This document shows positions 99-14,328 of a DNA stretch of 51,730 nucleotides, in pieces. This stretch comes from a bacterium (GTDB lineage Bacteria; Myxococcota_A; UBA9160; UBA6930). The first letter of the stretch is position 1; every line of letters begins with the position of its first letter. A program made the translations under genes and the position numbers. The DNA lies in contig JAAETT010000052.1 in the NCBI GenBank assembly GCA_024228115.1, positions 1 to 51,730 of the forward strand, given 5' to 3'. The notes beneath the pieces were generated by a model. It was given only the letters and a program-made list of their open reading frames with translations. It did no database searches and was not told the origin of the DNA.

Positions 99-1673
99 TC
101 AAACTCTCAGAAAATCAACCGGTTCTGGGACATCCCCACTCACGATGCCGCGGTGTGCCAAGCGAACGATCTCGTTGAGTACGCCCGTCACATCGACCAT
201 CGACTGCAGGGTTTGCGAGAGCAACGCCACTTCGAAGCTCTTGTCGGGGATCGCCGCGACACCCTTGTCGAGGTTCGCATGAATCACGTCGAGCCCGCGC
301 GACACACATTCGACGACTTCGTGCTGGTCGCGTTCGACACCCAGCACCGGCTCGTGACCGCGATCGCGTAGGATCGCGAGGAGGTCTCCGTTGCCGCAGC
401 CGAGATCGACGATACTCGCCTGTTTGGGGATCAGGCGAAGGATCATCTCGTAGTCGAGCCGGCGCGCGAAGAAGATACCGGTCGGCTCGTCGATCCGGGG
501 TTCATCGGGGACCCGGATGCTGGCTTCGGATCCGGCCTCCGTGGAAAGCGCCGCGGCGATCATCCGCGCGCCGTCGCGCATGCTGTCTTCGAGGAGGAAT
601 GAATCGTGTCCAGCCGGGCTCTCGATCTCGCAGCTGCTCACGGATCGCCCCTGTGCGAGCAGCGCATCCACGATTCGCCGTGACGCCGCCGGCGGGTACA
701 ACCAATCACTCGAGAAGCTGAGAAACAGCCAGCGACAGTGGGAGGGTTCGAGAGCCGCCCGCAACGCGGCATCGGTCTCACCCAGATCGAAGAGATCCAT
801 CGCAGTCGAAAGCGTGATGTAGCTATTCGCGTCGAAGCGCTCGACGAAGCGGTCCCCCTGGTGCGCGAGATAGGTCCCCACTGAAAACGTGCTTTCGAAC
901 CCGGTCTCGATCGCACGTGGCTGCAGGCGTGTCGGATCGAATTTCGAGCGCATCGATTCGTCCGACAGGTAGGTGATGTGAGCCAGCATGCGCGCGAGCG
1001 CGAGCCCTGCTTCTGGCCCCGGCCCTCCGTAGTACTGCCCATCCGCGAAGCGCGGATCATGACGGATCGCGTTGCGACCCACGACATCGAACGCGATACC
1101 CTGACTGCTGAGACGAGGGGCTGCCGCGACGACGATTGCCGTCGCGACGGCATCGGGATGACGCGTCGCCCATTCGAGCACTTGAAGGCCACCGAGTGAC
1201 CCCCCGACCACCGCCCGCAGGGTTTCGATCCCGAGATGGTCGACCAACCGCTTCTGGACTTCCACCATGTCCGCGACCGTCACGACAGGAAAGTCCGCCC
1301 CGTACGGCCGCCCGCTCGCGGGGTCGATGAAGTTCGGCCCCGTCGTGCCCCGGCAGCCACCGAGAAGGTTGCTGCAGATGACGAAGTAGCGATTCGTGTC
1401 GATCGCGCTTCCGGGCCCGACGATCACGTCCCACCAGCCGAGATCGTCGTCTTCTGCGTGGCGTGCGACGTGGGAATCACCGCTCAACGCGTGACAGATC
1501 AACACTGCGTTGCTGCGGTCGGCGTCGAGTTCGCCGTAGGTTTCGTAGCAGATCGTCACTTCGGGTAGTTCGGCACCGCTCGCCAGGGCGAGCGGCATGC
1601 TCGACACGAAGGTCTGCGCGTGGCGCAGCCGAGCGGCACTCCGCAGATCGTCGCTGCTGGTCGGATCGCTCAC
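99..1673 (-). CDS. metX: Homoserine O-acetyltransferase fused to a shortened MetW domain
   Basis: MetX acetylates (or succinylates) homoserine in the cytoplasm, making the substrate for the sulfhydrylase encoded just upstream. With the GTG start at 1673 the protein has 524 residues. The alpha/beta-hydrolase triad is visible: Ser159 in GGSLGG, Asp323 in SSDWLYPP and His356 in AGHDSF. From about residue 397 it continues into a MetW-like methyltransferase fold, with VDLGCGNGDL at 422-431 and the MetW signature LLSQTLQ near 485. MetW proteins are about 190-200 residues; this copy stops after about 128, just after HRGIVS where FPN normally follows, so the last third is missing. GTG 1673 was chosen because it begins just before the conserved MetX N-terminus; no strong ribosome site is seen. 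It lies 52 bases after metY. Bifunctional MetX activity is likely; function of the clipped MetW part is uncertain. Confidence 0.9.
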   Translation of the reverse strand: MSDPTSSDDLRSAARLRHAQTFVSSMPLALASGAELPEVTICYETYGELDADRSNAVLICHALSGDSHVARHAEDDDLGWWDVIVGPGSAIDTNRYFVICSNLLGGCRGTTGPNFIDPASGRPYGADFPVVTVADMVEVQKRLVDHLGIETLRAVVGGSLGGLQVLEWATRHPDAVATAIVVAAAPRLSSQGIAFDVVGRNAIRHDPRFADGQYYGGPGPEAGLALARMLAHITYLSDESMRSKFDPTRLQPRAIETGFESTFSVGTYLAHQGDRFVERFDANSYITLSTAMDLFDLGETDAALRAALEPSHCRWLFLSFSSDWLYPPAASRRIVDALLAQGRSVSSCEIESPAGHDSFLLEDSMRDGARMIAAALSTEAGSEASIRVPDEPRIDEPTGIFFARRLDYEMILRLIPKQASIVDLGCGNGDLLAILRDRGHEPVLGVERDQHEVVECVSRGLDVIHANLDKGVAAIPDKSFEVALLSQTLQSMVDVTGVLNEIVRLAHRGIVSGDVPEPVDFLRV

Positions 1674-1725
1674 GGGGCCATCACGAAACGGTCTCTGAAC
1701 TACGTCTTTGCGAAGTGGACACCGC

Positions 1726-3030
1726 CTACTGGCTTGCGCGCAACGCCTGATCGAGGTCCGCGATGATGTCGGCCGCGTCTTCGATCCCCACGGACACCCG
1801 AACGTATTCGGGCGAGACGCCGGTCGAGGCCTGCTCCTCGACGGTGAGCTGCGAATGGGTCGTCGAAGCCGGATGGATGACGAGCGTCTTCGCATCACCG
1901 ATGTTCGCGAGGTGGCTCGCAAGCTTCACGCTCTCGATGAACTTCTTGCCCGCTGCTTCGCCGCCCCGAATTCCGAAGCCGAGAAGTGCACCCGAGCCGT
2001 TCGGCAGGTAGCGGTTCGCCGCTTCGTGATGCGCGTGGCTCGAGAGCCCCGGATAATTCACCCACTCGACCGCGTCGTGGCTTTCGAGGAACTCCGCCAC
2101 CTTCTGCGCGTTGCCACAATGCTGCGGCATGCGCAGGTGCAGCGTTTCGAGACCCAGCAAGGTGAGGAAAGCCGCGAATGGACTCATCGCCGCACCGGTA
2201 TCGCGCAACCAATGGGTCCGGATGTGCATGATGTACGCGATGTTTCCGACCGGGCGAAGCGCCTCTTCGAAGACCGCACCGTGATAGGACGGCGAAGGTC
2301 CGCAGAACTCGGGCCAGCGCTCCGGATCGTCGGCCCACTGGAAGTTTCCGCTGTCGATCACGACGCCACCGATGTGAACACCGTGGCCACCGATGAACTT
2401 GGTGGTGGAGTAGATCACGATATCGATGCCGTGTTCGATCGGGCGCAATAGCGAAGGGGTCATTACCGTGTTGTCACACAGCAAAGGCAACTTGTGAGCA
2501 TGGGCGATCTCGGAGATCGCCCGAAAGTCGGGCACATCGTTCTTGGGGTTTCCGATGCTCTCAAAATAGACGCAGCGCGTGTTTTCGTCGACGAGTTCGT
2601 GGATCGACTCGGGCTTGTTCGGATCGAAGAAACGCACCTCGATCCCGAGGTTCTTGAACGTCTGCGTGAAGAGCGTCCAGGTGCCGCCGTACAGGCTCGT
2701 CGACGAAACGAAATTCTGACCTGAGTGGCAGATCGTCAAGATCGCGGCCGTGATCGCCGACTGTCCCGACGCGAAACTGAGAGCCGCGGCGCCGCCATCC
2801 ATCGCCGCGAGCCGCTTTTCGAGCACATCGTTCGTGGGGTTCATCAAGCGGCTGTAGATGTTGCCGAACTCGGTCAGGCCAAAGAGGTTCGCGGCATGTT
2901 CGGTGTCGTTGAATACGTACGACGTCGTGGCGTAGATCGGAACCGCGCGCGCGTTGGTCGTGGGATCGGGTTCCTGGCCAGCGTGGACCGCCATCGTTCC
3001 GAGGCCTTGGGGCGTGGGTTCGTCGCTCAT
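1726..3030 (-). CDS. metY: O-acetylhomoserine sulfhydrylase
   Basis: PLP enzyme that joins sulfide (or methanethiol) to O-acetylhomoserine, giving homocysteine (or methionine). It has 434 residues, the usual size. It shows the Cys/Met-metabolism family landmarks: YATTSYVF near the N-terminus, YSRLMNPT at 59-66, the PLP lysine Lys211 in YSTTKFIGGHG, and a C-terminal HPASTTHSQL segment followed by VRVSVGIED. The ATG at 3030 is preceded by AAAGGA at a good distance; an open frame extends further upstream but lacks family similarity. metX-metW follows in the same direction, so the pair supplies two consecutive steps of direct sulfhydrylation. Confidence 0.95.
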   Translation of the reverse strand: MSDEPTPQGLGTMAVHAGQEPDPTTNARAVPIYATTSYVFNDTEHAANLFGLTEFGNIYSRLMNPTNDVLEKRLAAMDGGAAALSFASGQSAITAAILTICHSGQNFVSSTSLYGGTWTLFTQTFKNLGIEVRFFDPNKPESIHELVDENTRCVYFESIGNPKNDVPDFRAISEIAHAHKLPLLCDNTVMTPSLLRPIEHGIDIVIYSTTKFIGGHGVHIGGVVIDSGNFQWADDPERWPEFCGPSPSYHGAVFEEALRPVGNIAYIMHIRTHWLRDTGAAMSPFAAFLTLLGLETLHLRMPQHCGNAQKVAEFLESHDAVEWVNYPGLSSHAHHEAANRYLPNGSGALLGFGIRGGEAAGKKFIESVKLASHLANIGDAKTLVIHPASTTHSQLTVEEQASTGVSPEYVRVSVGIEDAADIIADLDQALRASQ

Positions 3031-3291
3031 TTCGGAGAATCCTTTCGGGGGGTCCGGGCGGAGGGTTCGAGGCGCGGGAGCGCGCTCGCGCGGGCAGGCA
3101 AGCCTAGTCGAAGCGAGGCACGCAAGCTCTTCGACGCGGTCGGCGGCGGGGATCACCCCTTCGCTGAGGGTGTACCGGGTTGGAGAGGCATTCGTGCGAG
3201 ATCGATCCGGAGGCTTCGGATCTTCTGGCACCGAGAGCATCCAGGGGAAGCTGAAGAGGCTGGGGATCGAGTGAGCGGCAGGGCGGCTCCC
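3031..3291 (-). other. Leader/spacer upstream of metY
   Basis: 261 bases between the DUF385-like gene and metY. No supported gene. Because metY often carries a SAM- or SAH-sensing leader, this stretch was inspected for SAM-I, SAM-II and SAH core motifs; none was recognised by eye. A promoter or an unrecognised leader RNA could lie here. Confidence 0.3.
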
Positions 3292-4209: not shown

Positions 4210-4893
4210 TCAGGCGGGATTCGAATGCCCGTCGGCCAGGTAGCGGCAGATCATCTCGACCATCGCCTCCTTGACTCCGCGCGCATCGTCCGGGTGGAGC
4301 GCAGTCCAGATCCCGACCGTTGGGACGATGATGTCGAGCAGACGTGCAGCCGCCAGCGGCGATCGCACGCGTTCTCGCGACGTGAGCTTCCCAAGCACCC
4401 GCGCGAATGCCTGACGTTCGTAGCGGTCGTACTGATCGCTCAGTTCTGCGAACGCGGTATGCGTGTACGCCATGGCCGCGAACGTACGCAGCAGATCGGG
4501 TGGCACCGGATGCAGTGCCTTCCACGTCCAATCGACAATATGCTCGATGACACGCCGCAGATCGACTTCGCCGGCCGCCAGCGCCACCTCGACCGCTGCG
4601 ACCATTCGATCCTGCTCCTGGCGATTGTGCTCGAGAGCCCGGTGCACCACCTCCAGGAAGATCTGATGCTTGTCGCGGAAATAGCGATAGAGGCCGCCGA
4701 CGCTCATGCCGGCGCGCGCAGCAATATCGGGTGTCTGTGTGGCCTGGAAACCTCGCTCCCCGTAGAGCTGAACCGCCGCAACCAGGATGCGCTCGTAGGA
4801 CGCGCGAGCCCGCGTCTGTTTGAACTCCCGGGGGGCCGGCGGTGCAGGAGCCGTTCGCGAACCACGCCCTGCACGCTTCGGGGACACGACCAT
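4210..4893 (-). CDS. TetR/AcrR-family regulator, divergent from the alpha-hydroxy-acid oxidase
   Basis: 227 residues. After a basic, proline-rich N-terminal tail, the TetR DNA-binding domain runs from about 25 to 75: ASYERILVAAVQLYGERGF, then the helix-turn-helix TPDIAARAGMSVGGLYRYFRDK. The remaining helical region would form the ligand pocket and dimer face, with no recognisable ligand signature. ATG 4893 has AGGAT upstream. The gene is divergent from the oxidase, and the shared 85-base spacer holds two operator-like palindromes, so it most likely represses the oxidase and itself. Inducer unknown; a hydroxy-acid or related compound would be a guess. Confidence 0.9.
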   Translation of the reverse strand: MVVSPKRAGRGSRTAPAPPAPREFKQTRARASYERILVAAVQLYGERGFQATQTPDIAARAGMSVGGLYRYFRDKHQIFLEVVHRALEHNRQEQDRMVAAVEVALAAGEVDLRRVIEHIVDWTWKALHPVPPDLLRTFAAMAYTHTAFAELSDQYDRYERQAFARVLGKLTSRERVRSPLAAARLLDIIVPTVGIWTALHPDDARGVKEAMVEMICRYLADGHSNPA

Positions 4894-4943: not shown

Positions 4944-4949
4944 TTGACA
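4944..4949 (+). promoter_or_regulatory. Candidate -35 box of the oxidase promoter
   Basis: A consensus TTGACA sits between the two palindromes. A weak -10 (GACATT, 4967-4972) follows with 17-base spacing and lies inside palindrome 2. If used, transcription would begin around 4979, making the oxidase mRNA nearly leaderless, and a repressor on palindrome 2 would cover the -10. Confidence 0.4.
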
Positions 4950-4978: not shown

Positions 4979-6244
4979 ATGCTCTCCCGCGAATCCCCCC
5001 GCGCGAGCCGCCGCGCCCTCCTCCGCTTCCTGCTGAGCAGCCCTCTGCTCCTTGCGCCGCGCCCCAGCGCCGCCCTCGGGGAGCTCGTAGAATCCCTCGC
5101 GCGCTGCGAACCCGATCTGTCTCCTGCCGGCGAGCTCATCGCGTCGCCCGCGGACGCGATCAACGTCTTCGACTTCCGTGCCGTTGCGAAGCAAACGCTC
5201 TCGCCGGGCCACTACGCCTATCTGGCCACCGGCGTCGACCATGAGCGAGGGCTTCACGCAAACCGGGCGGGGTTCGGACGTTTCGGGCTTCGTCCTCGGC
5301 GCATGGTCGATGTGCGCGAACTGGACACGACCACTGAGATCCTGGGTACCCGAGCCTCCTGTCCGATCGTGCTCGCCCCGGCTGGAATGCAGACCGCCTT
5401 CCACCCCGAGGGCGAGCTGGCCGTCGCACGCGCGGCGAAGGGCACAGATCAGCTCCAGATTCTCTCGACGCTGTCCGCGAAGTCGCTCGACGATGTGCTC
5501 GAGGCGCGCGGAGCCCCTGTCTGGTTCATGCTGGTGACGCCTCGTCTCTGGCCGGTGACCCGGCTGCAGCTCAAGAAGGCGGAAGAGGCTGGCTGCTCGG
5601 TGGTCGTACTGACGGTGGACTACGTCGGATTCGGCAGTCAGGATCGCCTGCGCCGCTTCCGTGGGCCTGGTGACCCGTTCCCGAGCACGGAGAGCCGCGA
5701 ATGCCAGAGCTGCCATGGCCCCAGCACGGTGGGACGAATCGGGCGCATCCTCACGGCGTTCGGACAGGATCCTCTCGAGTTCGCGTCCGATGCGGTCAAT
5801 CTCGACTGGGAATACGTTGACCGAATCCGCGACGCGACTTCGATGAAGCTGGTCCTGAAAGGAATCCTCACCCACGAAGACGCCAGCCTCGCTGTCGAAC
5901 ATGGCGTCGACGGCATCATCGTCTCCAACCACGGTGCCAGACAGATGGACAATTCGCTCTCCACGATCGAGGTGCTGCCGGAGATCGTGCACGCGGTCGC
6001 CGGGCGCATCCCGGTGATGATCGATAGCGGCTTCCGCCGCGGCACCGATGTCTTCACCGCCCTCGCCCTGGGTGCCTCCGCGATTTGCATCGGCCGCCCC
6101 TACCTCTGGGGCCTGGCGGCATTCGGCGAGCCTGGTGTCGACGGCGTTCTGCGCCTCCTGCGCCGTGAATTCGAAACCGTGATGCGCCACATGGGTACCC
6201 CGGACATCGCGTCGATCACACGAGACTTCGTAGAAACGGGCTGA
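4979..6244 (+). CDS. Exported FMN-dependent alpha-hydroxy-acid oxidase/dehydrogenase with a CxxCH motif
   Basis: Family members oxidise lactate, glycolate, mandelate or similar acids to 2-oxo acids using FMN. From ATG 4979 (AAGGGA upstream) it has 421 residues; an in-frame ATG at 4949 lacks a ribosome site. The N-terminus has a twin-arginine-like signal, SRRALLRFLLSSPLLLAP. The barrel shows LAPAGMQ, LTVDY, LVLKGI, the active-site SNHGARQ with His318, and the DSGFRRGTD/IGRPYLWG phosphate-site motifs. Unusually, the Gln and Tyr normally in the FQLY strand are replaced (WFMLVTP), and the Arg after LTVD is absent. In the mobile loop after LTVD lies CQSCH (Cys242, Cys245, His246), a c-type haem attachment motif. 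A periplasmic dehydrogenase passing electrons to a haem is therefore possible; substrate unknown. Regulated probably by the divergent TetR. Confidence 0.88.
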   Translation: MLSRESPRASRRALLRFLLSSPLLLAPRPSAALGELVESLARCEPDLSPAGELIASPADAINVFDFRAVAKQTLSPGHYAYLATGVDHERGLHANRAGFGRFGLRPRRMVDVRELDTTTEILGTRASCPIVLAPAGMQTAFHPEGELAVARAAKGTDQLQILSTLSAKSLDDVLEARGAPVWFMLVTPRLWPVTRLQLKKAEEAGCSVVVLTVDYVGFGSQDRLRRFRGPGDPFPSTESRECQSCHGPSTVGRIGRILTAFGQDPLEFASDAVNLDWEYVDRIRDATSMKLVLKGILTHEDASLAVEHGVDGIIVSNHGARQMDNSLSTIEVLPEIVHAVAGRIPVMIDSGFRRGTDVFTALALGASAICIGRPYLWGLAAFGEPGVDGVLRLLRREFETVMRHMGTPDIASITRDFVETG

Positions 6245-6331
6245 GCCGGCCAACCTCCCACAGCGGAAGGCCGTTCCGGCATGCAGGGACTCCCTCGAGC
6301 CGGATCCCGTGGAACTCGGATTCCAGAATCA

Positions 6332-6350
6332 CGACCATGGCGCATGGTCG
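6332..6350. terminator. Hairpin between convergent oxidase and RND genes
   Basis: CGACCATG (6332-6339) and CATGGTCG (6343-6350) form a perfect 8-bp stem with a 3-base loop in the 109-base gap between two convergent genes. Position suits a shared terminator; no strong U tract on either side. Confidence 0.5.
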
Positions 6351-6353
6351 GGG

Positions 6354-9300
6354 CTACACAGCGAGGCCAACCTCACTCTCGTGCGACGGGGGCGTTTCGA
6401 GGCGCTCGACGTTCGTTTCGTCGGCGGTCGGATGAAGTCGCTCGTCGCGCCGATCCTGGCGGCGCACGAAGCTCACGTAGAGTGACGGCACCAGGTAGAG
6501 CGCGAGGATCGCGGAGCCTCCGACACCGCCGGCGATTCCAGTTGCGAGCGGGCCCCAGAAGCGGCCGCCGAACACGATCAGCGGGATGAAGCCACCCACG
6601 GTCGTGAGCGTCGTCGATACGATGTGACGCGTGGCGCCCACGACCACCTTTCGCACCTCTTCCGGTTCGGCGTGCTCGCAGCTCGGTGAAGCTCGTAGCG
6701 CGGAGAGCACCACGATCGCCCCGTTGATCGCCAGGCCGACGAGTCCCATCGTGCCCAGGATTGCATTGAAGCCCATGGGGTAGCCGAAGGCCCAGACCCC
6801 CACGAACGCCAGGCCGATGGAGAGGAATGCGACGATCCCGATGATGCCCGCCATGCGGAATGAGTTGAACGAGAGGATGATGGTGCCTGCCATCATGACG
6901 AAGAGCGGCACCACGAAGCGCATCAGATTCGCCATGGCGTCGTCGCTCTGCTCGCTCTCGCCACCCAGCTCCAGGCGGTAGCCCGGCGGGAGTTCGAAGC
7001 CGCTCTGTTCGAGCCGGCGCTCGAAGTCCTCGAGAGAGGAAGAAATGATGGTAAACGGCAGCAGGAACGCCTGCACCGTGTTCACACGTTCGCCCTGCCG
7101 CCTGGGAACCCCCGCCAACTCGGGTACCAGGGTGACTTTCGAAACCGCCGATAGTGGAACTCCGCCAATCACGCCGCCCGTCGCCCTGGCGCCATCGCGC
7201 ACCACGTAGTCGCTGGCCAGTCTCGCTAGTTCACTACGGTCGTCGTCTGCCACGCGAACCCGTACCGGGAGTTCCTGATTGGCCTCGAGGATCGAGCCGC
7301 CGACCACGCCTTCGATGCGGCCAGAGAGCTGATCGGCCACATCCACCAGCCGCAAGCCAGCCATGCGCAGCGCTTCCTCGTCAGCCTCGAACAGGAGCTT
7401 GGGCTCACCCGATCGAAGCTGCGCCAGCGTGTAGGTGACGTTCTCGGATTGGGCGAGCACGACGCGCAATTCCTCACCCAGGCGGCGCAGTTCGCCGATG
7501 TCCGGCCCCACAACGCGGATCTCGATCGGCGCGTCGAACGGTGGGCCCTGCTCGAAGGCGGATGCGAGGATTCGCGCATCGGGGAAGGCATCGGACAGTT
7601 CTTGCTGGAGTTCACGGAGCAGGCGGCCGGTTGCCGCCGCGCTGGTGGTGTTCACGAAGCCACCGGCAAAAGCGGAGTTGCGGTCCTGGCCTGGCATCAC
7701 GTTGTAGTAGACCCGCGGTGTTCCTTCGCCGGCAATCCAGTGGCTCTCGACCACCTCTTCCTTGCCGTTCACGATCGAACGCGCACGCTTCACCGCAACA
7801 AGGGTGGCCGCGAGCGAAGTTTGACTCGGGAGCACGATCTGGACCTGGAACTGGTTGCGGTCGTTCGAGGGGAAGAACTGGCTCGGCAGGGTCGTGACGA
7901 CGTAGAAGCCGAGCAGGGGCAGCGCAACCGAGACGGCGACGCCGCGCCACGGGCGCGCGAGCACGAAATCGAGGCTGCGCTCGTACCACGCGAGAATGCG
8001 CGCATTCGAGTAGCCGTCTCGCCAGAAACGCGAACCGGGTTCACCGCGTTCAGCCGTGAAGTGCCCCGCGATCGACGGGATCACGGTCATGGAAAGGAAG
8101 AACGAGCTGCCGACCGCGAGGGCGACACCGATCGAGATGGGCCCGACGAACTCGCTCATCGGCCCCGGCGAGAGCACGATGGGCAGGAACGCCAGGATGG
8201 TAGTGACCGAAGAAGCGAGCAGCGGAACGAACAGATGGCGCACGGCTTCCGAAACGGCGTCGCCCGGCGCGCTGCCTTCCTGCACGAGCGAGTTGTACTC
8301 GTCCACCACGACGATCGCGTTGTCGATCAGCAGGCCCAGGGCGATGATGAGGCCGGTGATCGACATCTGGTGGAGTGGCATGTCGATCCAGTTGTACTGG
8401 GTGAGGACCATCGCGACCGTGAGAGGAAGAGCACTTCCGACAATCAGGGCCGATCGGGCGCCCATCATCACGAGCAGCACCAGCCAGACGATGGCCGAAG
8501 CGAGAAGCAGGTTTCCCGCAAGGTTCGCCAGCCGCGCCTGCGTGTAGATGCTCTGATCGAAGACGAGTTCGAGAGAGATCCCGGGTGGCATCTCCGCCCG
8601 GTACGCCTCGACGATGGCACGGGCTTTCTCGGCCCAGACGTCGACGCGGTAGGACGGCTCCATGGTGGTCGCCACCATTACGCCCGGACGGCCGCGGACC
8701 AGCGCGACCGACTCGACGGGCTCGCGCACGGTCTTCTCCACCTGCGCCACGTCGCCCACGCGCAATACCCGGCCGTCGGCTTCCTGCCGCAAGGGAATCC
8801 GCCGAATCCGTTCGACCGAAGTCAGCTCGCCGGCGACTTCGATGACGAGCTGGCTCAACTCGGCGCGCAGCTGACCGGCCGGCACCTTCGAATCTGCGCG
8901 AGCGATCGCCGCCGAGACATCGCTGGGGCGCAACCCGAGTGATGCGATTTCGAACGGATCGATGCTGACCCGAACCTCCTCTTCAGCCTCGCCGAGGAGC
9001 TCGACCTCCTTGGTGCCGGGCACGTTGCGCAGACGGTTCTGGAGTTCCTCGCCGAAGCGGGTGAGGATTCCGAGCGGTGCATCGCCGGCACCGTCCCAGA
9101 CGAAGGCCGGGAGCAAGGTCAGCGCAGTCGATGTCCGGTCCTCGACGACGGGAACACCGGCACCTGCGGGAAGGCCGCCAGCAGCGTCACTCACCCGGTC
9201 GCGCACCTTGGACCAGATTTCGTCCACTTCGTCGAAGCCGTAGTCGTCTCCGAACTGGATTGCGATCGTCGAAACCCCGGTGCGGGAAGTCGAATTGATA

Positions 9301-9530
9301 TCCTCAATCTCGTGGAGCTGGCGAAGCTCGGCCTCGATGGGTTCGGTGACGAGCGACTCGACTCGCAGAGCGCTCGCACCCGGGAAGAAGGTCGTGACCA
9401 TTCCGAAGCGGCCCGCCATCGCCGGATCCTCGGAGCGTGCGAGGCTCCCAAGGGCCGCGATGCCCGCGATGGTCGCGAGCATGACCGCGAGGATGGTGAG
9501 ACGCGGATTGCGGTAGAAGAGGTTCGCCAC
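6354..9530 (-). CDS. RND-family efflux transporter permease
   Basis: Inner-membrane proton/drug antiporter of the AcrB-like (HAE1) superfamily, 1058 residues as usual. Visible landmarks: N-terminal span (LTILAVMLATIAGIAALG), the large periplasmic loop starting with FFPGASALRVESLVTEPIE, TM4 motif GLLIDNAIVVVDEYN (an Asp-Asn pair where AcrB has Asp-Asp), a second periplasmic loop, and the final helices with GLVGLAINGAIVV and GGFIPLIVFGGRFWGPLA. The GTG start at 9530 lies 3 bases after the adaptor stop and has GGAGGGG just before it, so it is co-translated with the adaptor. No outer-membrane channel gene is nearby; a TolC from elsewhere would be needed. Substrates cannot be read from sequence. 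Confidence 0.93.
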   Translation of the reverse strand: MANLFYRNPRLTILAVMLATIAGIAALGSLARSEDPAMAGRFGMVTTFFPGASALRVESLVTEPIEAELRQLHEIEDINSTSRTGVSTIAIQFGDDYGFDEVDEIWSKVRDRVSDAAGGLPAGAGVPVVEDRTSTALTLLPAFVWDGAGDAPLGILTRFGEELQNRLRNVPGTKEVELLGEAEEEVRVSIDPFEIASLGLRPSDVSAAIARADSKVPAGQLRAELSQLVIEVAGELTSVERIRRIPLRQEADGRVLRVGDVAQVEKTVREPVESVALVRGRPGVMVATTMEPSYRVDVWAEKARAIVEAYRAEMPPGISLELVFDQSIYTQARLANLAGNLLLASAIVWLVLLVMMGARSALIVGSALPLTVAMVLTQYNWIDMPLHQMSITGLIIALGLLIDNAIVVVDEYNSLVQEGSAPGDAVSEAVRHLFVPLLASSVTTILAFLPIVLSPGPMSEFVGPISIGVALAVGSSFFLSMTVIPSIAGHFTAERGEPGSRFWRDGYSNARILAWYERSLDFVLARPWRGVAVSVALPLLGFYVVTTLPSQFFPSNDRNQFQVQIVLPSQTSLAATLVAVKRARSIVNGKEEVVESHWIAGEGTPRVYYNVMPGQDRNSAFAGGFVNTTSAAATGRLLRELQQELSDAFPDARILASAFEQGPPFDAPIEIRVVGPDIGELRRLGEELRVVLAQSENVTYTLAQLRSGEPKLLFEADEEALRMAGLRLVDVADQLSGRIEGVVGGSILEANQELPVRVRVADDDRSELARLASDYVVRDGARATGGVIGGVPLSAVSKVTLVPELAGVPRRQGERVNTVQAFLLPFTIISSSLEDFERRLEQSGFELPPGYRLELGGESEQSDDAMANLMRFVVPLFVMMAGTIILSFNSFRMAGIIGIVAFLSIGLAFVGVWAFGYPMGFNAILGTMGLVGLAINGAIVVLSALRASPSCEHAEPEEVRKVVVGATRHIVSTTLTTVGGFIPLIVFGGRFWGPLATGIAGGVGGSAILALYLVPSLYVSFVRRQDRRDERLHPTADETNVERLETPPSHESEVGLAV

Positions 9531-9533
9531 GCC

Positions 9534-10708
9534 CTACCCCTCCGCTCCGTCGGCGCCTGGGCCCGGGTCGGAGGGTTGGGATTTCGCGGTCTCTTCCGTG
9601 GCTCGTACGAGCTGCCCCTCTACGATGCGGTGGACGCCGCTCGTCACGATCCGGTCACCGTCGTTCAACGTACCCGTGACATACACCCGGTCGGTCTCGA
9701 CGTGGACGACCTGCAGATCGCGGCGCTCCACCCGGAAGAAACCGGGATCCTCGGCCGCCGCGATGGCATAGGCGCTCCAGAGCCCGCGTCGTCCCTCGGT
9801 GAGTGCGGTCATCGGCAACCAGTAGCCTTCGCCGGGCCGCGCCGTTTCGAGAACGAGCCGCCCGAGGGTTCCGTCCGCGATCGCACCGCCCTCCTCGGCG
9901 TCGATGTGGAAGATTGCCGTGAGGGTCCGGGCTGCGGATCGACCTCGGGCAGCCGCGCGTGAAGGCGCGCAGTCCGTTCGGCTCCTTCCACCTCGACGAC
10001 GTAGCTCGCGTCGGGATCGAGAGCGTCGGCCGTGGCAAGAGGCAGTCCCACCCGAAGTTCGAGGGGACCGACCTCGATGATGCGCAGGATGGCCTGCCCG
10101 GGTGTAGCGACGGTGCCTTCGTCCACAGAGCGCATGACCACGATGCCCGCGAAAGGTGCCCGCAACTCCGAGAGCTCGAGCATGACCTTCACTCGCGCAA
10201 TTCCGGCCTTCGATGCCTCGAGCTCGGCGCTCAGGGCTTGCTGGTCGAAGCGCGCCTCATCGAACGCCTGCTGTGAAATGCTCTCGCGGTTCACCAGCTT
10301 CTCGCGTCGGGCCGCCGTCCGCTGCGCCAGCTCGAGTCGGGCCGCGGTCGCCTGGCGCCGCGCCTGGAGTTCGCGCAGTTGGGCCCGCAGGTCGCGCGTC
10401 TCGAGTGAGGCGAGGAGGTCTCCCTGTTCGACGCGGTCTCCCTCATCGACGCCGAGGTTCACCACCCGGCCGGCGTGGTCGAAGCCCAGATCACTGCTGC
10501 GACGGCTCTCCACGCGACCTGCAAACGTCTCGCGCACGCGGTAGCTCGTCGCCAGCCGCACCGGTGCGGTTCGCACGAGCAACGTCGATGCGGCCTGAGG
10601 TTCGATGTCGTTGCTCGCGCCGTTTCCCACTTCGCAGCCCAGGCACAGCAGGACTGCCATGGAAACAGCGGCGGCTGTCAGGGATCGAGCTCGGTTTTCG
10701 GTTCGCAT
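9534..10708 (-). pseudogene. RND membrane-fusion (adaptor) lipoprotein, frameshifted
   Basis: Periplasmic adaptor of the HlyD/AcrA type that would join the pump to an outer channel. ATG 10708 begins MRTENRARS, followed by a signal ending in lipobox LCLGC. The order is barrel (VRETFAGRVESRRSSDLGF), lipoyl half (GRVVNLGVDEGDRVEQGDLLASLE), a coiled-coil hairpin (RDLRAQLRELQARRQ to DQQALSAELEASKAG), second lipoyl half (LRAPFAGIVVMRSVDEGTV) and barrel. Near 9930-9938 the frame breaks after ARLPEVD; the matching continuation ARTLTAIFHIDAEE to YWLPMTALTEG is in another frame, consistent with one missing base. If real, the adaptor lacks its C-terminal membrane-proximal domain; if a sequencing error, the operon is intact. 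It overlaps the 3' end of the TetR gene by 31 bases. Confidence 0.85.
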
Positions 10709-11319
10709 GGTTGGATTCCCCGTATCAGGACGCGCACGAGGTCTTCCAGGAACGCAGAGTCGGTCGGGAGCGCATCTCCCATCCTCCGCTGGAGGCTGGG
10801 CCGCGCCTGGAACCAGTGTTCGACGAGATTGAATAGAGCGATGAGAGCCGATGCAGGGTCGATGTCGTCCCGCATGAGGCCCTGCTTCTGCATCTCGCGG
10901 AATCTTTCGGTGCCGCGCAGGGCCAGTTCGCGGGCCGGCTGCTGCACCGCGTTGGATGCGTTCGCCCACGCGTGCAATCGGACGAAGTTGGGCTTCTCCT
11001 GGAGGAACGCGAAGAGCGCGCGTGCCGACTCCTCGAAGCCCGCGATGTCGAGGGAGGGGCGGGCCAGGATTTCGCTCTGCCGTTCGCCGTAGTCAGCGAA
11101 GAGATGGTCCGCGACCGCCAGCCACAAGTCTTCCTTCGATCCGAAGTGGTGGTGGATCAGGCTTCGGGTCACCCCGGCGGCGTCGGCGAGATCCCGCAGG
11201 CTGGCACCGGCGAATCCGCGTTCGGCGAATACCTGCTCGGCCGCCTCGAGGATGGCCAGGCGCGTCTGTTCGCCGTCTCGCGGGCTCTGGCCGGCGCTGG
11301 TGGTCGAAGGGAGGGCCAT
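10678..11319 (-). CDS. TetR-family regulator of the RND pump operon
   Basis: 213 residues from ATG 11319 (MALPSTTSAG); ATG 11334 is an alternative. DNA-binding domain: TRLAILEAAEQVFAERGFAGASLRDLADAAGVTRSLIHHHFGSKEDLW. The C-terminal region resembles the TetR_C subgroup that has a FLQEKPNFVRLHAWANA segment and a hydrophobic ligand pocket. It is the first gene of an operon with the adaptor and pump, overlapping the adaptor start, as is common for local pump repressors. A near-perfect 16-bp palindrome lies just upstream. Inducers unknown; pump substrates are likely. Confidence 0.9.
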   Translation of the reverse strand: MALPSTTSAGQSPRDGEQTRLAILEAAEQVFAERGFAGASLRDLADAAGVTRSLIHHHFGSKEDLWLAVADHLFADYGERQSEILARPSLDIAGFEESARALFAFLQEKPNFVRLHAWANASNAVQQPARELALRGTERFREMQKQGLMRDDIDPASALIALFNLVEHWFQARPSLQRRMGDALPTDSAFLEDLVRVLIRGIQPCEPKTELDP

Positions 11320-11342
11320 GACCACAGGGAACATGGAGTGAA

Positions 11343-11358
11343 TTGGCCGGCCGGTCAA
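11343..11358. promoter_or_regulatory. Operator-like palindrome upstream of the pump TetR
   Basis: TTGGCCGGCCGGTCAA differs from its reverse complement at only one pair of positions. Its size, centre and place 24 bases before the regulator start match an autoregulatory TetR site. Confidence 0.55.
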
Positions 11359-11437
11359 CTCCCCTCGGGGGATCCAATTCTCTTCTTCCTGGTCAGATCC
11401 GGCCTCCGATGGAGGCTGAAGGCGGATTCGGTCGCCG

Positions 11438-12859
<1,422 letters not shown>

Positions 12860-12914
12860 CGCTCATCCTCCAACGTTCGAACGGATGCAGCCGCCAGATC
12901 GGCAGTCGGTTCAA

Positions 12915-13559
12915 TCAGCTCGACCCCTCGCGCCGGTTCTCCGAAGCGGCATCGAGCGTCACCATGGCGATACCGATCATCGACTCCCGCGTCACGATGT
13001 CAGCCAGTTGTTCCTCGGTCCAATCTTCCGTCCCTGCCGGGCGCAGCGGAAGGACGATGAAGCGGGATTCGGCGGTCGTATCCCACACCCGGATCTCGAT
13101 CGTCTCGGGCAGGTCGAGACCCATCTGGTGCAGGACCTTGCGAGGCTCACGCGCCACCCGAGCCCGGTACTCGGGGCTCTTGTACCAGTCCGGAGGCAGG
13201 CCGAGGACCGGCCAGGCCGTGCACGAGCACTGGGTGCACACGATCACATGATGAAGCTCGGGCTCATCCTCGAGTGCGACGATGTACTCGCCTTGCGGGC
13301 CTTCGAAGCCAAGCTCGGCGCAGGCGGCCGTCCCGTCCGCGAGCAGACGCGCATGATAGGCGGGGTCGGTCCAGGCCCGAGCGACGACCTTTGCGCCGTT
13401 GCGCCAGTTCATGACCTCCTCGAGCTGGCCCAGCGTGGCATCGAGAAGTGTGTCGAACTGGCCCTCGGGCAGATGGCCTTTTTCCTCGAGGGCGGTTCGC
13501 ACGGCGGAGGCCCGTTCGGCGATCCCCGCCGGCGGCATGGCGTCCCGTTCACGACTCAT
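12915..13559 (-). CDS. nthA: Nitrile hydratase alpha subunit (metal-binding)
   Basis: Hydrates nitriles to amides with a low-spin Co(III) or Fe(III) centre. 214 residues. The claw motif is CTQCSC at 108-113; known cobalt types have CTLCSC and iron types CSLCSC, so the Thr points to cobalt but the Leu-to-Gln change is unusual. Flanks (TAWPVLGLPPDWYKSPEYRARV and VWDTTAESRF) follow the family. The ATG at 13559 overlaps the beta stop as ATGA, so the two subunits are translated in a fixed ratio. The beta-alpha order resembles many cobalt-type operons. No activator/metallochaperone gene (P14K or P47K type) is found nearby. Confidence 0.95.
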   Translation of the reverse strand: MSRERDAMPPAGIAERASAVRTALEEKGHLPEGQFDTLLDATLGQLEEVMNWRNGAKVVARAWTDPAYHARLLADGTAACAELGFEGPQGEYIVALEDEPELHHVIVCTQCSCTAWPVLGLPPDWYKSPEYRARVAREPRKVLHQMGLDLPETIEIRVWDTTAESRFIVLPLRPAGTEDWTEEQLADIVTRESMIGIAMVTLDAASENRREGSS

Positions 13560-14188
13560 CCTGTTTCCTCCAGATAGGTCTCCCAGAGCTGGACGACGAC
13601 AGACTCGCGAGCGCCCGCTGCGTCGCCCCACAGATCTTCCGCCTGGAAGAGCACGTGGTAGGTCGGCTCGCTGCGCGGCGGGAGACCATGGGCCGCCGCA
13701 TCCGGATACGAGAAGGGAGGCGTCACGTGAAGCACTTCGCCCTGGACTCCGCGTACATAACGAGGGGCGCGCGTGTGGCCAGCCGGGTGCATCTCGCGGA
13801 CCCGCACCCGATCACCGACCTGATACCGCGGGGATTCGCTGCTTGCCTTGCCATCGGCCTCGACCAATGCGGCGGGCTGAGCCAGCGGGAAAGGGCCTCC
13901 GGCCCGGTCCTCGAGTTCTTCGTGGGTAAGGATGCCCTTCTCGACCAGCAGAGTGGCCACGCCCGTGAGTGTTCGCTCGTAGTAGGACGCGCTCAGGTAG
14001 TGCGCAGGCAACATGCGTTCGATCGAATGCCGATACTCATCCACGTTGTAGGTGCGTAGAACGCCGACGCAAAGCACGTTGAGCCCGAAGGCAAGTGCCT
14101 CCCAGGGCTCGTGAAAAGTCGGCTCGTCCGTCTCCACTTCGACGGGCCCGAAGCCAGCCATTCCTGCCAGATCATGAATTCCGTCCAT
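13556..14188 (-). CDS. nthB: Nitrile hydratase beta subunit
   Basis: 210 residues. It begins with the canonical MDGIHDLAGMAGFGPV; ATG 14188 has GGAGGTGG upstream, so longer frames are rejected. Helical N-terminal region (EPWEALAFGLNVL, RHSIERMLPAHYLSASYYERTL) is followed by the SH3-like barrel (YQVGDRVRVREMHPAGHTRAPRYVRGVQGEVLH, YHVLFQAEDLWG). The beta subunit helps bury the metal site and forms the substrate channel. First gene of the nthB-nthA-amidase operon; divergent from a NylB-like hydrolase. Confidence 0.95.
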   Translation of the reverse strand: MDGIHDLAGMAGFGPVEVETDEPTFHEPWEALAFGLNVLCVGVLRTYNVDEYRHSIERMLPAHYLSASYYERTLTGVATLLVEKGILTHEELEDRAGGPFPLAQPAALVEADGKASSESPRYQVGDRVRVREMHPAGHTRAPRYVRGVQGEVLHVTPPFSYPDAAAHGLPPRSEPTYHVLFQAEDLWGDAAGARESVVVQLWETYLEETG

Positions 14189-14328
14189 TCCACCTCCGGC
14201 TTCCAGCTGGCACGGTAGACCGGGCGGGGCCCGATTCGCAAAGAGAAGCGTGTCGGATCTCCCGTGAGCCATGGAGAATCCGCATCTCGGGTATCCTCGC
14301 GCGGCCCCTGCGAACGCGAGGAACGATC

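Follow-up and report, generated by a model that had tools for sequence, protein, structure and literature searches.

A conserved CxxCH motif in loop 4 of predicted exported FMN-dependent 2-hydroxyacid dehydrogenases: a proposed single-domain flavocytochrome c

RESULTS AND DISCUSSION

The gene described here lies in a 51,730-nucleotide stretch of DNA (the whole stretch analyzed, hereafter the window) and probably encodes an FMN-dependent 2-hydroxyacid dehydrogenase that is exported by a Tat-type route and bears a covalently bound c-type haem on loop 4 of its barrel, that is, a single-domain flavocytochrome c. The proposed haem attachment is the best reading of a CQSCH sequence that an earlier note on this DNA had placed in the loop after LTVD. 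The motif does lie there, between LTVD (residues 211 to 214) and W277, and the observation is confirmed and stronger than that note could know. A lone CxxCH is by itself weak evidence for a cytochrome c; in archaeal proteomes, 4,410 proteins had a single motif and 64 of them were considered cytochrome c candidates, and 157 had a signal or N-terminal helix (PMC4429474). In the present case, a conserved CxxCH occurs together with a twin-arginine (RR) signal in 28 of 28 relatives, and export is predicted.

Family assignment and predicted export

The plus-strand open reading frame (4949/4979 to 6244) is intact. The start at 4979 is favored over an alternative ATG upstream at 4949 because the first Met of homologues aligns at 4979, and the residue numbering used in the earlier note (Cys242, Cys245, and His246) therefore holds (Table 1). 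The match to Pfam FMN_dh (PF01070) spans profile positions 1 to 349 of 350 (E value, 2.5e-109), and by its sequence the product is a member of the FMN-dependent 2-hydroxyacid dehydrogenase family. Among solved structures, it is closest in sequence to lactate and glycolate oxidases and closest in fold to glycolate oxidase/HAO1. Because its score is far under the cut-off of every NCBIfam model matched (LldD, 197.9 versus 550 bits; L-lactate oxidase, 179.9 versus 645.5 bits; and pre-mycofactocin synthase MftD of the same superfamily, TIGR03966, model name actino_HemFlav, 203.3 versus 470.85 bits), the protein has no curated name, and the branch to which it belongs is now annotated, if at all, merely as generic alpha-hydroxy-acid oxidase. 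No match to the cytochrome b5 domain (PF00173) was found in the protein at an E value of ≤1, and the Pfam search found no cytochrome domain and no cytochrome c fold in it. Against a 90% identical orthologue, dN was 0.05 and dS was 0.45, and dN/dS was approximately 0.11 against the nearest orthologues.

The twin-arginine-like signal suggested in the earlier note was borne out, with RR at residues 11 and 12 followed by a hydrophobic stretch. TatC is encoded in the window's own genome, and on these features the protein is predicted to be exported as a Tat substrate.

Table 1. Coordinates of the dehydrogenase gene, its features, and the divergent regulator gene in the window
Feature	Position	Strand	Basis
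CDS, exported (predicted) FMN-dependent 2-hydroxyacid dehydrogenase with CxxCH, 421 aa	4979..6244	+	PF01070 match and homologue starts
Twin-arginine-type signal region, residues 1-35 (SRRALLRFLLSSPLLLAPRPSAA)	4979..5083	+	RR in 28/28 relatives, hydrophobic stretch, TatC in genome
Arg11-Arg12, twin arginine	5009..5014	+	Alignment and sequence
His78, branch-specific invariant, candidate distal haem ligand	5210..5212	+	28/28 versus 0/17; helix 76-84 in model
Trp191, specific to the branch and nearly invariant; may contact haem or lie on an electron path	5549..5551	+	26/28 versus 0/17
Span with retained catalytic Asp214, Lys294, His318, and Arg321 (glycolate oxidase D157, K230, H254, and R257)	5618..5941	+	Conserved in 27-28/28
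Loop 4 of barrel, residues 215-276	5621..5806	+	pLDDT < 50 at 216-249; alignment with glycolate oxidase
CQSCH, residues 242-246, predicted haem c attachment motif	5702..5716	+	C242, C245, and H246 invariant in 28/28
Divergent TetR-family regulator gene, possible regulator	4210..4893	-	PF00440, E 1.1e-17; homologues in L001, L078, and L081

Conservation of the motif across the branch

A first search gave six relatives, all six with CxxCH; these loci were partly retrieved with a motif-bearing pattern and are biased if taken alone. The surveys were whole-genome searches with a profile or a single full-length protein, and they covered three bacterial groups and well over 1,000 genomes in total, with sampled genomes overlapping between surveys: the window's class (91 genomes, 16 with a branch member), its phylum (379 genomes, with no carriers beyond those 16), the phylum to which the gammaproteobacterial carrier belongs (398 genomes, 6 with a member), and one alphaproteobacterial order (249 genomes, 10 with a member). 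After removal of copies, 28 sequences were left, from Myxococcota, Alphaproteobacteria, and Gammaproteobacteria and with identity down to approximately 45%, every one of which carries CxxCH at the same position. Since the surveys rank by whole protein, a relative lacking the motif should have surfaced, and no close one was found in the class, two phyla, and one order surveyed. In the class survey, a gap in E value from 1e-143 to 1e-85 separates the branch, and the best matches beyond the gap have neither CxxCH nor RR. The haem c reading of the earlier note depended on the cysteines and the signal peptide going together; they do so throughout the branch, and neither is present in 17 ordinary family members used for comparison (eight from plasmid records, and some from the same genomes as the branch). 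A second copy in the window's own genome (contig C77, 60% identity) also has CxxCH, one branch member was found on plasmids (Methylobacterium bullatum), and no relative was found on viral contigs.

A maximum-likelihood tree was built with nine ordinary family members as the outgroup, namely spinach glycolate oxidase and eight sequences from the genome surveys. In this tree, the CxxCH sequences form one side of a single branch (support, 100/100; length, 1.38), with some outgroup joins unsure owing to long branches. The CxxCH label requires one change on this tree, versus a mean of 8.2 for shuffled labels, and on these sequences the CxxCH branch is one clade.

Among the 62 positions of loop 4, C242, C245, and H246 are the only zero-entropy columns in the 28 sequences, and the next best kept positions include R226 (26/28) and R256 (25/28), two arginines that might form pairs with the haem propionates. 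The pair of residues separating the cysteines ranks with the more variable positions of the loop (QS, RS, EG, VA, QG, QP, YA, QA, QT, QV, TT, SG, TD, KD, KM, KG, and AG were seen), a variability that resembles that of c-type cytochromes, and G directly follows CxxCH in 10 of the 28. In addition, the codons of the second Cys and the His differ synonymously among orthologues. Taken with the conserved C-C-H and the low dN/dS, these synonymous changes point to selection to keep exactly C-x-x-C-H. The fold and catalytic residues are ordinary, as they would be in an ordinary 2-hydroxyacid oxidase with an accidental CxxCH; however, chance produces CxxCH in only 0.18% of shuffled proteins of the same composition, for even one protein, and complete conservation over a divergent clade under such a dN/dS refutes this explanation, to which we give a negligible probability.

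Loop structure and active site

The AlphaFold2 model of the window protein has its barrel at good confidence and residues 216 to 249 at a pLDDT below 50, and that of an alphaproteobacterial homologue has a good barrel and is uncertain at 232 to 240 and 246 to 254. The loop is thus predicted to be flexible and not buried, in line with the earlier note. The low confidence fits a flexible loop, and a haem site is neither shown nor excluded by the models. Loop 4 has been described as flexible and as contributing to catalysis across the family (PMC10153336). In a fold comparison, the best 50 structural matches were all from the same family and are uninformative on a haem fold in the loop.

The catalytic residues H318, D214, and K294 are present in all 28 sequences, R321 is present in 27, and Y81, the equivalent of glycolate oxidase Tyr24, is present in 25 (the remainder have Phe). 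Because the catalytic His, Asp, and Lys and the substrate Arg are kept, 2-hydroxyacid oxidation is the likely chemistry of the protein. The earlier note had also suggested that replaced active-site residues might mean different chemistry, and this stands only in part. The Arg after LTVD (Arg164), described as invariant in the family (PMC10153336), is Q in the window protein and varies in the branch (R in 8 of 28, T in 10, Q in 7, and K in 3, versus R in 17/17 ordinary members; loop-length differences allow alignment shifts of 1 to 3 residues here), and the Gln127 equivalent is Met in half of the branch. Against this, the equivalents of the catalytic His, Asp, and Lys, Tyr24, and Arg257 are retained, and although FQLY reads FMLV in the window protein (Q to M and Y to V), Tyr129 of FQLY is kept in 24 of 28 sequences, the exceptions being the window protein and the three relatives closest to it (L002, L003, and L013). 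The suggestion of changed chemistry is therefore minor and weaker than the motif claim. Within the branch, pocket changes are greatest in the window's own subclade (M184, V186, and Q221) and may reflect a bulkier substrate.

Proposed haem attachment and ligation, and alternatives

In its full form, our proposal is a one-domain flavocytochrome c that is exported by Tat, receives its haem after folding, ligates it by H246 and H78, and transfers electrons directly from FMN to haem without a cytochrome domain; this detailed version is put forward tentatively. FMN would be inserted and the barrel would fold in the cytoplasm, the folded protein would be exported by Tat, and the cytochrome c maturation machinery would join haem to the segment C242-Q-S-C245-H246, which is flexible and exposed; H246 would serve as one ligand, and the branch-specific H78 may be the other. 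At FMN, the usual His318/Asp214 machinery would convert a 2-hydroxy acid to the 2-oxo acid, and reduced FMN would then hand over single electrons in turn to the haem on the loop, from which they would go to a soluble periplasmic cytochrome c.

The bacterial cytochrome c synthase CcsBA loads haem onto CXXCH peptides 9 to 20 residues long, and neither of the thiols nor the His can be spared (PMC8112865); since such short peptides suffice, a flexible loop is a plausible substrate for haem attachment. Matches to PF01578 (CcmF/CcmC/CcsA family) occur in the window's own genome, where one frame of 662 aa suggests CcmF and hence System I rather than CcsBA. PF01578 is found in 91/91 class genomes, and the maturation genes are therefore uninformative as a co-occurrence test. 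A tension for the proposal is that Tat exports folded proteins, whereas in published accounts of bacterial haem attachment the chain is secreted and unfolded (PMC8112865). The tension would be resolved if the haem-accepting loop stayed disordered while the rest of the protein was folded, and split-Soret cytochromes c with predicted Tat signals offer a precedent for combining Tat and haem c (PMC4429474).

In the 28 sequences, loop 4 has no further conserved Cys and, after CxxCH, no conserved Met or His as the usual distal ligand. H78 lies three residues, or one helix turn, before the active-site Tyr81, whose equivalent in flavocytochrome b2 we take to be Tyr143, which contacts a haem propionate there. 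Because H78 is invariant only in the CxxCH branch and adjoins this spot, it is the leading candidate for the other ligand of the haem. Further branch-enriched residues are W377 (28/28 versus 3/17), F382 (28/28 versus 1/17), and R282 (28/28 versus 3/17).

Three other readings of the triad were weighed. (i) The haem could be attached and yet be structural, sensory, or reactive with oxygen or peroxide, with no relay and with FMN reoxidized by oxygen or quinone. A loop without a typical distal ligand makes five-coordinate haem possible, and parts of a study of EC 1.1.3.15 document family members reoxidized by O2 or quinone (PMC8491902); however, loop 4 takes part in catalysis in family enzymes (PMC10153336), and H78, near the active-site Tyr in sequence, could be the second ligand. 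We consider this reading unlikely. (ii) The CxxC could be a redox-active disulfide/dithiol that passes FMN electrons to a periplasmic thiol-disulfide partner, with the His tuning the pKa. Two invariant cysteines stand two apart near the flavin site, and the periplasm has thiol-disulfide systems, but the invariant His after the second Cys is a haem c feature that CxxC dithiols do not need, the intervening residues are free to vary, and no thiol-disulfide partner gene is common among recurrent neighbors, which makes a dithiol quite unlikely. (iii) The C-C-H triad, with or without H78, could bind a metal such as zinc or iron and merely order the loop. Three invariant potential ligands with a fourth elsewhere would allow this, yet the adjacent C245 and H246 are poorly placed to bind one metal jointly, no other Cys of the loop is conserved, and the pattern is exactly CxxCH; a metal site is thus very unlikely. 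A haem that relays electrons remains the reading that we prefer.

Gene neighborhood

Neighbors of 17 loci were clustered for clues to a partner or substrate. They are mostly unshared, only the divergent TetR gene recurring, in the window's subclade (4/17 loci), and genome context was therefore dropped as a guide to either. No conserved cytochrome partner gene was found among these neighbors; two small cytochromes c near the L068 and L072 loci are not common to other loci. In Myxococcota, cytochrome P450 genes adjoin the CxxCH dehydrogenase gene or lie a few genes away from it at L076, L077, L079, L081, and L082, which may merely reflect P450-rich genomes. The second copy in the window's own genome (L073; G000 contig C77, 7990-9270) lies directly downstream of a GMC oxidoreductase gene (5995-7806) on the same strand.

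Within the window, an RND (AcrB-type) transporter gene (6354-9530, minus strand) is convergent with the dehydrogenase gene, with a TetR gene beyond it at 10678-11493. Genes for the alpha and beta subunits of nitrile hydratase are followed downstream by an amidase gene (11438-14272, minus strand, by Pfam), and the metal motif of the alpha subunit is VCTQCSCTAWP, in which Gln takes the place of the usual Leu. Formation of 2-hydroxy acids from cyanohydrins by these enzymes, 5 to 8 kb away, was set aside because none were seen beside other branch members. At 99-1922 (minus strand), the reading frame of a MetX-like alpha/beta-hydrolase continues into MetW, covering the first 108 of its 193 positions, either a fusion or a frameshift cutting MetW, and a Cys/Met metabolism PLP enzyme gene is at 1726-3240.

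Comparison with known systems

Spinach and human glycolate oxidases (1GOX and 2RDT) have the same FMN-binding barrel (VIA Z 41-43, 38-40% identity) and the same catalytic equivalents (Tyr24, Asp157, Lys230, His254, and Arg257) as the window protein, but they lack an export signal, CxxCH, and a His78 equivalent, use oxygen, and have an invariant Arg164, unlike the branch. In (S)-mandelate dehydrogenase (6BFG and 1HUV), of the same family, the elongated loop 4 binds the membrane and electrons go to quinone; it is not known to have CxxCH or an export signal. p-Cresol methylhydroxylase and gluconate 2-dehydrogenase combine flavin with covalent haem c, as proposed here, and their flavin domains are not known to be related to the FMN barrel. 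Their haem, however, is in a cytochrome of the enzyme complex (PMC6472588), whereas here it would sit on a loop of the catalytic domain itself. Yeast flavocytochrome b2 (L-lactate:cytochrome c oxidoreductase; 1FCB/1KBI) has a related FMN barrel (Z 40.4) and shares the wiring proposed here, from FMN to haem to cytochrome c outside the cytoplasm, but its haem is b-type, non-covalent, and in a separate domain (PMC6472588) of a kind that the window protein does not have.

The literature searched, with subscription papers mostly outside reach, held no description of CxxCH in the FMN-dependent 2-hydroxyacid family or of this branch. A review of flavoenzyme-cytochrome systems covers flavocytochrome b2, with its b-type domain, and complexes with c-type cytochromes (PMC6472588). 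Parts of the EC 1.1.3.15 study report members that use cytochrome c or quinone in place of oxygen, a b5 domain, and an elongated loop 4, the quinone acceptor and the long loop being features also given above for mandelate dehydrogenase, and these parts do not mention CxxCH (PMC8491902).

Implications

If the proposal is true, a much-studied flavoenzyme family would have a further electron hand-off, through a haem on the catalytic loop and not through oxygen, quinone, or a fused cytochrome b5 domain, and five residues would be enough to equip an enzyme with haem c in the absence of a cytochrome fold. The protein would also test whether a folded Tat substrate accepts covalent haem, and it would provide a compact blueprint for wiring enzymes directly to electrodes. 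For the CxxCH branch itself, a testable activity is now offered.
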